Source of the DNA: Acrocarpospora catenulata
Lineage (GTDB): Bacteria; Actinomycetota; Actinomycetes; Streptosporangiales; Streptosporangiaceae
DNA length: 42,305 nt
Reading direction: 5' to 3'
Assembly: GCF_018476525.1 (NCBI RefSeq)
Contig: NZ_JAHCST010000077.1
Span: 1 to 42,305 of the forward strand
Shown: positions 4,056 through 11,153 of the stretch, in pieces
Layout of the letters: the number at the start of each line of letters is the position of its first letter
How positions within the stretch are numbered: position 1 is the stretch's first letter
Translations under genes and position numbers: made by a program
Notes under the pieces: model-generated
Databases searched by the model: none
Told to the model about the DNA's origin: nothing
Seen by the model: only the letters and a program-made list of their open reading frames with translations

Positions 4056-4087
4056 GACCCCCGGGGCATGCCCTGGCCCCGGGGGTC
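4056..4087 (-). terminator. Strong hairpin closing the tRNA-mimic RNA unit
   Basis: The perfect 12-bp arms GACCCCCGGGGC and GCCCCGGGGGTC enclose an 8-nt loop. There is no T-tract, as is common in high-GC actinobacteria. It sits between the second tRNA-like RNA and the asnB promoter region, so it most likely ends transcription from the 5163 gene and its RNAs. A smaller GCCGTC/GACGGC hairpin lies just before it (4093-4110). Confidence 0.6.
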
Positions 4088-4121: not shown

Positions 4122-4229
4122 GAATGCCGGTCAGTCATCATTATGTTGCGCTCTTCCATTGAGCTAGGGGCGCAGGTGGAGCACCCCGCGGGACTCGAAC
4201 CCGCACCCTCAACATGCCCTTCGGCATTC
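4122..4229 (-). ncRNA. tRNA-like RNA 2 (circularly permuted tRNA module on a Y-RNA-like stem)
   Basis: Read 5' to 3' on the minus strand: a lower stem GAATGCCG (4222-4229) pairs perfectly with CGGCATTC (4122-4129). Above an internal loop, TGTTG (4210-4214) pairs with CAACA (4144-4148), equivalent to an anticodon stem. Between them the tRNA body is in swapped order: variable AGGGT, T arm GCGGG-TTCGAGT-CCCGC (4188-4204), acceptor 3' strand GGGGTGC, loop TCCACCT, acceptor 5' strand GCGCCCC (4167-4173), U8-A9, D arm GCTC-AATGGAA-GAGC (4150-4164). The acceptor has seven pairs including G3-U70, the alanine identity pair. The 3' half precedes the 5' half, so this is not an ordinary tRNA. The architecture matches YrlA-type bacterial Y RNAs, which mimic tRNA. 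Function is inferred. Confidence 0.78.
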
Positions 4230-4264
4230 GGTTGCCCGGGCGTCGGACGGCGAATGCTGAGCCT

Positions 4265-4398
4265 GGAGCGAGAATCTGAGTTTCAGCGGCCGCCTCTTCC
4301 TGCTTGGGCTACTCCGGCGCGGTGGGGGCCGGAGACGGGATTCGAACCCGCACTGACACCGCATTTCAGCTTCGAGCCTCATTTTCAGCTTGCGCTCC
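4265..4398 (-). ncRNA. tRNA-like RNA 1 (circularly permuted tRNA module on a Y-RNA-like stem)
   Basis: The layout is the same as in its neighbour. The lower stem GGAGCG (4393-4398) pairs with CGCTCC (4265-4270). A second helix TGAG (4378-4381)/CTCA (4277-4280) follows. An anticodon-like stem GCGGT (4358-4362)/GCCGC (4286-4290) is separated from it by a large asymmetric loop. The T arm GCGGG-TTCGAAT-CCCGT (4335-4351) comes first, then acceptor CTCCGGC (4328-4334), a 9-nt loop, acceptor GCCGGAG (4312-4318), U8-A9 and a D arm with GG in its loop (4292-4309). The seven acceptor pairs are perfect. The word GCTGAAA occurs at both broken anticodon edges and once more upstream. It starts 27 nt after the upstream gene's last sense codon, so it is probably co-transcribed and processed, possibly by RNase P at the GCCGGAG end. 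Confidence 0.75.
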
Positions 4399-11057: not shown

Positions 11058-11063
11058 GAACTG

Positions 11064-11153
11064 CGGAGGTTCGGGGATTTGAACCCCGGATGGGCTTAAG
11101 GCCCAAACCGCATTAGCAGTGCGGCGCCATAGACCGGACTAGGCGAAACCTCC
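11064..11153 (-). tRNA. tRNA-Ser (anticodon GCT)
   Basis: This is a 90-nt class II tRNA: acceptor GGAGGTT/AACCTCC, anticodon loop CTGCTAA with anticodon GCT reading AGY, a long variable arm (TGGGCCTTAAGCCCA) and T loop TTCAAAT. The discriminator is G. CCA is not encoded. Its 3' end faces a degraded integrase. Confidence 0.95.

Follow-up and report, generated by a model that had tools for sequence, protein, structure and literature searches.

What kind of RNA is encoded on the minus strand at positions 4398–4122 of a 42-kb contig of Acrocarpospora catenulata, and which protein does it accompany? A preliminary description of this interval, made from the letters alone, had proposed two tandem circularly permuted tRNA-like units with Y-RNA-like stems. 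The window analyzed here is the whole contig (NZ_JAHCST010000077.1, 42,305 nt; contig G000:C157 in our numbering), which belongs to a genome of 10.3 Mb with 98.4% completeness. The whole element is larger than first noted and consists of a gene of the DUF7873 family (PF25283), strands A and B flanking unit 1, both units, and strand C. We infer, and consider probable, that DUF7873 and the RNA downstream of its gene constitute a two-component, Ro60-independent, Y-RNA-like ribonucleoprotein; structure and linkage make DUF7873 the most likely partner of the twin tRNA mimic. New in relation to the preliminary description are the protein and its linkage to the RNA, the three strands A–C, the broad distribution, which includes phages, and a separate set of Ro60-linked Y RNAs in related genomes.

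Permuted units were searched for with a scanner requiring a T arm with a TTCRA loop, permuted 7-nt acceptor halves, a D arm with GG, and an anticodon-like stem. The two best matches in the window were minus 4362–4286 (score 39.7) and minus 4214–4144 (42.0), and the third best scored 35.7. In 20 dinucleotide shuffles (1.69 Mb, both strands), no match reached 38 and six reached 36, so the two tandem units proposed earlier were recovered at scores never attained by shuffled DNA. Both units contain the complete order of elements given before (T arm, closed 7-bp acceptor, U8-A9, D arm with GG, and 5-bp anticodon-like stem). The first half of unit 1 comprises the 3' strand of the anticodon-like stem (4362–4358), the T arm (4351–4335), the 3' acceptor half (4334–4328), and the acceptor loop (4327–4319); the second half comprises the 5' acceptor half (4318–4312), U8-A9 (4311–4310), the D arm (4309–4292), and the 5' strand of the anticodon-like stem (4290–4286). 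The acceptor of this unit is GCCGGAG/CTCCGGC, and the anticodon-like stem is GCGGT/GCCGC. The corresponding parts of unit 2 are located at 4214–4210, 4204–4188, 4187–4181, and 4180–4174 (first half) and at 4173–4167, 4166–4165, 4164–4150, and 4148–4144 (second half), with GCGCCCC/GGGGTGC as the acceptor and TGTTG/CAACA as the anticodon-like stem.

Neither ARAGORN nor Rfam at the gathering score called anything across the two units. With relaxed Rfam settings, the YrlA model (RF02553) matched over its full length at 4227–4121 (41.0 bits, E = 1e-7) and 4372–4270 (23.2 bits, E = 0.014), both below the gathering score of 69 bits. The same relaxed search on 17 DUF7873-linked loci, the window copy (L001) included, gave 11 matches in 10 loci (29.5–41 bits, E ≤ 0.1). 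Since units linked to TROVE, the Ro60 domain, also remained below the gathering score (28.8–56.2 bits), this threshold does not discriminate here. Neighboring ordinary tRNA genes can mimic the permuted pattern at their junctions; five such cases in the genome scored 27–36 bits with R1, a covariance model made in this analysis, vs. 70.5 bits for unit 2 and 43.4 bits for unit 1. This explanation does not apply to the locus, because the interval 4122–4398 is free of any tRNA gene.

Covariation was assessed on an alignment (A2) of 61 loci, mainly actinobacterial, of which 40 were collected by plain DNA similarity and 21 were picked by protein or family. All rows had passed a loose scan; 82 references had been prepared, with six loci and several number ranges omitted, and 21 were then removed as near-duplicates or as long. 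RNAalifold, uninformed of tRNAs, predicted 54 pairs with double changes in 39 of them. In each unit it recovered the T arm, the acceptor, and the D arm; unit 1 stood on a two-part stem of strands A and B, and unit 2 on another two-part stem. After the anticodon stems were added, 92.7% of 3864 cells were paired and 44 of 64 pairs showed double changes. The covariation score was 0.394 compared to 0.158 for shuffled alignments, none of 500 shuffles reached it, and pairing fell to 34–46% when partners were slid by one to three columns. Compensatory changes, which the preliminary description had proposed to look for in homologs, were therefore abundant. Basal stems formed from the outer ends (helices 1, 2, 9, and 10) were supported over the 61 loci.

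Core positions of tRNA not required by the scanner were conserved in units 1 and 2 of the 80 two-unit loci: U8 in 80 and 79, A14 in 80 and 78, R15 in 80 and 80, and Y48 in 78 and 80, respectively. In 34 viral contigs with two units, U8 was found in 33 and 29 and A14 in 32 and 26. The length of the acceptor loop varied from 4 to 64 nt. Element order, basal stems, core nucleotides, and sub-threshold YrlA matches agree with the Y-RNA-like reading proposed earlier. The conserved RNA is probably non-coding.

The gene located 5' of the RNA, in the window (minus 5163–4429) as well as in relatives, encodes a DUF7873 protein of 244 aa (Pfam score 377 bits), the candidate protein partner; its GTG start was picked using an alignment (A1) of 36 DUF7873 sequences. 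Searching DNA of 297 genomes of the family gave a match in 155, with several dozen matches covering at least half of the query and the weaker ones restricted to short stretches, e.g., a T arm. By tblastn, a DUF7873 frame was present in all 50 loci taken from this search (only the C-terminal part in L037). Loci were also picked by the protein, so that the RNA did not choose them: 109 distinct loci, of which 80 came from GTDB genomes, 6 from a phylum draw, 9 from viral contigs, and 14 from phage or plasmid records. In 105 of the 109 loci, from several phyla and phages, the 900 nt downstream of DUF7873 contained at least one unit (two or more units in 82, one in 23, none in 4). Among the four loci scored as misses, both units are visible by eye in L094 and L121, a single one that is farther away or below the threshold is present in L141, and L104 has none. 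In control regions of 135 distinct loci (50 of them RNA-picked), units were found in 1 of 99 upstream regions, on 1 of 135 opposite strands, and in 0 of 66 regions 1500–2400 nt downstream.

The linkage extended to an additional set of viral contigs, drawn from the best 80 of 132 matching loci and partly overlapping with the nine mentioned above. Of its 69 distinct and sufficiently long contigs, 62 had a unit (two units in 34, one in 28). The antisense control was 0/69 and the upstream control 7/65, and most of the upstream matches are presumed to be junctions of tRNA genes. In a single draw of 150 genomes of the family, R1 reached at least 60 bits in 47, and the same 47 carried DUF7873 (whole, split, or as a fragment), with the cut-off set after the scores were seen and the two genome lists matched by hand. 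Two more of these genomes had weak DUF7873 matches (E = 4–6e-4) and never reached 60 bits with R1. In genome G066, the top R1 match is located elsewhere and has a TROVE-type stem, and the DUF7873-linked match scored 67.3 bits.

No third conserved gene was found among frames of at least 110 aa within approximately 6 kb of 24 representative loci. Besides DUF7873 and its shadow frames, the widest gene cluster was present in 5 of the 24 loci at scattered positions. The asparagine-synthetase-like gene adjoining the RNA in the window was not counted because it clusters with only two other representatives (Spirochaetales, other position). Some genomes contain the DUF7873–RNA cassette twice, as in Nonomuraea turkmeniaca (L074 and L082) and in G271 (contigs C55 and C157).

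The nearest named relatives in the DUF7873 search belonged to Acrocarpospora species, in a list from which records of the genome itself may be missing. Alignment A1 has 22 invariant columns, including most of a C-terminal motif, AVKYAREEAN. DUF7873 was the sole Pfam match of the protein, with no TROVE domain found; PADLOC and NCBIfam gave no defense or curated family match, and no solved structure related by sequence was found. The AlphaFold2 model had a mean pLDDT of 88 and a pTM of 0.63. Of 313 fold matches in PDB, the 50 that were listed had no title mentioning TROVE or Ro60, and no match reached E ≤ 0.001. The fold leads in PDB were weak and were not used (3kdq with probability 0.85 and E = 0.07; Pur-alpha chains with probability ≤0.2), and a protein of Vibrio phage Vp_R1 in BFVD matched with a probability of 0.99 but E = 0.013. 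One relative, L141/L285 on an IMG/VR contig of 350 kb, has an in-frame stop codon under translation table 11, for which L141 was excluded from A1, and one unit approximately 600 nt downstream; it is possibly a phage with another genetic code or a decayed gene.

Outside the tRNA-like cores, the RNA has conserved parts of its own. Strand A (minus 4391–4364), the 5' strand of the basal stem of unit 1, was recognized from pairing, invariant columns, and 6-nt phasing, and contains NUNAR repeats at 6-nt spacing in many relatives. Strand B (CTCAGAYTCTCGCTCCAGAYTCAGCAT-like; minus 4281–4251) is the 3' strand of this stem and is strongly conserved in A2. At least three [ACU]UNAR repeats spaced by 6 nt were present in strand A of 38 of the 80 two-unit loci, against an average of 0.0 in shuffles and 0 at spacings of 4, 5, 7, 8, and 9 nt, for a pattern first spotted in the tested sequences themselves. 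The A:B stem is nearly invariant (double changes in 2 of 11 pairs), so its support comes mostly from conservation and from the Actinomadura loci L113 and L117, in which unit 1 is gone and strands A and B are retained, pairing as a hairpin.

Unit 2 stands on the 8-bp outer pairing claimed earlier for one of the units: 4229–4222 pairs with 4129–4122 on the minus strand (helix 10), 92.5% paired and with double changes in all 7 counted pairs. Strand C (minus 4122–4106) carries the CTTAAACG motif, recognized by eye across phyla and located inside the stem of unit 2, and contributes to the outermost stem (4108–4106 with 4243–4241; helix 9, 89.9% paired over 61 loci); three of the four family pairs of this stem form in the window copy.

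The absence of a Ro60 gene, noted before for the window, holds for the genome: PF05731 (Ro60/TROVE) had 0 matches in A. catenulata at 98.4% completeness. TROVE was found in 8 of 296 genomes of the phylum, four of which also carry DUF7873 (an earlier draw of 396). Nine TROVE loci were examined; the scanner detected permuted units in six, two apiece in four of these, and relaxed Rfam detected YrlA in seven (30.5–56.2 bits), with L163 (2.3 kb) and L164 negative by both methods. Twelve further loci of the family, taken from lower-scoring R1 matches and from the second strong match in G066, all matched YrlA with relaxed Rfam (28.8–51.8 bits). Their flanking frames encoded TROVE in 9 of the 10 loci tested (all but L206 and L209), the exception being the frame chosen in L204. 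In Streptosporangiaceae relatives and other actinobacteria (L204–L215, L162–L171), TROVE-linked Y RNAs have one to three permuted units, and since all relaxed Rfam finds there are below the YrlA gathering cut-off, this RNA family looks under-annotated in those genomes.

The stems separate the two sets. A strict 5' stem motif (GCGNAGGC-like) was located near 9 of 10 and 12 of 25 TROVE-linked units of the first and second sets, respectively, vs. 9 of 238 DUF7873-linked units; it had been drawn from the first set, where it looked cleaner. Loci L211 and L212 have another stem form, GGGTCGAA. A relaxed 5' motif was found near 30 of 35 TROVE-linked vs. 3 of 238 DUF7873-linked units, and the 5' and 3' motifs together near 29 of 35 vs. 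2 of 238, with the relaxed motifs drawn after both sets had been seen and all motifs derived from TROVE-linked units. The Ro60-linked Y RNAs of related genomes are therefore a separate set with different stems, and the same head on different stems means that two Y-RNA-like systems coexist in one bacterial family.

INPHARED contained 73 records with DUF7873, from phages of Vibrio (29), Gordonia (12), Rhizobium (12), Klebsiella (7), Serratia (6), Arthrobacter (3), Pseudanabaena (2), Rhodococcus (1), and Microcoleus (1). The RNA is located among tRNA genes in most phage stretches examined, with an ARAGORN tRNA call in 10 of 13 stretches (9 without the doubtful L160) and in 42 of 69 viral contigs. 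The only call in L160 (Klebsiella phage FBKp24, 4022–4106), annotated as a suppressor tRNA (TTA), overlaps with the twin mimic and could be a false positive. The units occupy unannotated gaps in L148, L149, L152, and L153 and are overlapped by small hypothetical genes in L150 and L151. Vibrio phages L154 and L161 had one unit, with unit 1 apparently missing by eye, and the match in Microcoleus phage L156 was weak (36.7) and may be due to chance. Viral and phage copies (L140, L146, L148, L152, L153, L157, L160) often encode ACCA following the 3' acceptor half of unit 1, which cellular copies do more rarely; the acceptor loop may be cleaved in phages. A gene annotated as band-7-like is located near the element in Rhodococcus phage NiceHouse, the only locus inspected for such a gene. 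Burroughs and Aravind reportedly described, in 2016, SPFH/Band-7 modules with a 'novel tRNA-like molecule'. By description, these modules resemble our case: a non-coding RNA of tRNA-like form occurs together with a protein that is a candidate scaffold, in contexts of RNA repair and conflict. The novelty of our finding would drop if the two RNAs were the same.

Among known systems, the closest is the YrlA-type Y RNA (RF02553, crystal structure 6CU1) acting with Ro60/Rsr, which shares the circularly permuted tRNA-like head and the interrupted basal stem and can also be tandem, as in rsr-yrlBA-rtcBA of Salmonella according to a passage of PMC7790460. With ARTEMIS, Y RNA 6CU1 is reported to superpose on tRNAs in circularly permuted order (PMC11472068). 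The RNA studied here differs in its linkage to DUF7873 instead of Ro60, in mostly lacking the TROVE-linked stem motifs, and in having its own strands A, B, and C in a single block downstream of the protein gene. For RYPER of Deinococcus radiodurans (Ro60–Y RNA–PNPase), passages of PMC8394870 and PMC4726728 propose that a protein occupies the stem while an enzyme is held at the tRNA-like head; our reading shares this plan, without a TROVE protein. The review passages also mention modification of YrlA by DusA and TruB and tethering of PNPase (PMC8394870) and state that Ro60 orthologs bind Y RNAs in all organisms studied (PMC4726728). This RNA has the head and the stem plan of a Ro60 Y RNA but neither its linkage to Ro60 nor its stem motifs, and by these defining features it should not be filed as one. 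The name DUF7873 did not occur in the literature searched, and a Y-RNA-like RNA with a non-Ro60 protein was not described in the titles, abstract openings, and passages of the matches listed, which does not establish priority.

By analogy with these systems, the RNA plausibly works like a Y RNA whose stem is held by a protein and whose head engages an enzyme acting on tRNA. Transcribed as a single unit, it would present two Y-RNA-like modules, in each of which a closed, circularly permuted tRNA mimic that keeps its elbow intact sits on a basal stem with interruptions, formed by A:B under unit 1 and by the two outer helices under unit 2. The stems would be bound by DUF7873 in the way that Ro60 binds the basal stem of Y RNA. 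The heads, which have neither an anticodon loop nor a free 3' end, could offer their elbow and acceptor to a recruited tRNA-acting enzyme, and the client may be a nuclease or a modification or repair enzyme, as for YrlA with PNPase, TruB, and DusA. In phages, the role would probably, and speculatively, consist of managing, repairing, or shielding tRNAs during infection. A more far-reaching version, which we regard as tentative and rather doubtful, is a second class of Y-RNA machine with a partner of its own in bacteria and phages: DUF7873, perhaps as an oligomer, would replace Ro60 and recognize the basal strands by the 6-nt-phased NUNAR repeat, the pair of mimics would catch either two enzymes that act on tRNA or a single dimeric one, and phages would use the RNA, in or near their tRNA arrays, to preserve tRNAs when the host attacks them.

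Several observations weigh against a DUF7873 ribonucleoprotein of this kind. The protein is mildly acidic (pI 5.5; median 5.9 over 36 sequences), and Foldseek with its model gave no match at E ≤ 0.001 in PDB (best E 0.07) or BFVD (best 0.013), so that the argument for RNA binding comes down to linkage. Locus L104 and 7 of the 69 viral contigs have DUF7873 and no unit. Conversely, DUF7873 is split, fragmentary, or stop-interrupted in three genomes (G022:C48, G048:C104, G068:C185) that keep an adjacent RNA scoring at least 70 bits with R1, which may reflect decay, misassembly, or an RNA working without DUF7873. The anticodon-like stem is the weakest helix, only modestly above shuffles at fixed offsets; that of unit 2 was 41% paired in A2, where alignment shifts are visible, and 76% paired on alignment A4, whose helix counts lean towards structure owing to the pairing-demanding scanner by which its units were picked, A2 being the fairer of the two. 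In some distant loci (L130, Vibrio phages), the A:B pairing was not evident by eye, and strand A gives more the impression of a single-stranded motif that recurs.

Other explanations were considered. Unlikely, in our opinion, is a phage-derived decoy or sensor, in which host enzymes that cleave tRNA are bound or inhibited by the mimics, DUF7873 stabilizes these mimics, and cellular copies are domesticated or defensive. The tRNA calls in phage stretches and viral contigs and the retention of elbow and acceptor without an anticodon loop would suit it, and a competitive-inhibitor role has been suggested for YrlA in a passage of PMC7790460, but DUF7873 had no PADLOC match. That the RNA is a true Ro60 Y RNA with its Ro60 partner in trans is very improbable: both units match Rfam YrlA, the architecture is that of TROVE-linked units, and some genomes have both systems, whereas the genome of A. 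catenulata has no TROVE match, TROVE-linked stem motifs are rare in this RNA, and the linkage is to DUF7873. We likewise regard as very improbable that these are permuted tRNA genes, joined at the anticodon end and opened at the acceptor loop by RNase P and RNase Z to yield functional tRNAs. The complete tRNA core in permuted order, with the 3' half preceding the 5' half as in some algae and archaea (PMC3978253), agrees with such genes. So does NCCA after the 3' acceptor half, present in units 1 and 2 of 17 and 19 of the 80 two-unit loci and of 15 and 12 of the 34 viral ones, which exceeds the frequency of 1 in 64 that CCA would have if all bases were used evenly. On the other hand, CCA is missing from most loci, the acceptor loops vary widely in length, and unit 1 is dropped whole in some loci. 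Moreover, a 7-nt anticodon loop cannot be drawn, and in A2 the anticodon stem continues into conserved basal stems in place of an anticodon loop junction.

The period-6 pattern of strands A and B could also be read, in many loci by eye, as alternating hydrophobic codons for short peptides (KLKLKL/KLRLSLQ) of an unusual mRNA or a tmRNA-like tag system. This is highly improbable, given non-triplet indels in A, a stop codon in frame in 7 of the 94 B-like segments that a motif search collected, and no conserved start or stop seen. Weak look-alikes do arise from adjacent tRNA genes, but the chance that the locus consists of decayed tandem tRNA genes or chance pairing is practically negligible, since it is free of tRNA genes, its RNA is present across phyla and phages, and the strong covariation already contradicts such an origin.

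Two hairpins border the RNA on the minus strand. An 8-bp hairpin with a TTCG loop (4425–4406) separates the stop codon of DUF7873 from the RNA, and GC-rich hairpins were seen by eye at the same place in many relatives. A GC-rich hairpin at 4087–4056, without a clear T run, may represent the 3' end of the RNA or a terminator; a hairpin was noticed by eye there in relatives. The window also contains two ordinary tRNA genes, tRNA-Arg(ACG) at 1144–1218 and tRNA-Ser(GCT) at 11063–11153, both on the minus strand.

If the DUF7873 ribonucleoprotein is real, the permuted tRNA mimic would be a reusable module rather than a Ro60 accessory, traveling with an unrelated protein across phyla and phages. DUF7873 would gain its first function, and phage tRNA arrays would gain a non-tRNA member, one that had no annotation in four of the first six phage records examined. 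The purpose of the tRNA mimic, a standing question, would become testable in phages with laboratory hosts.
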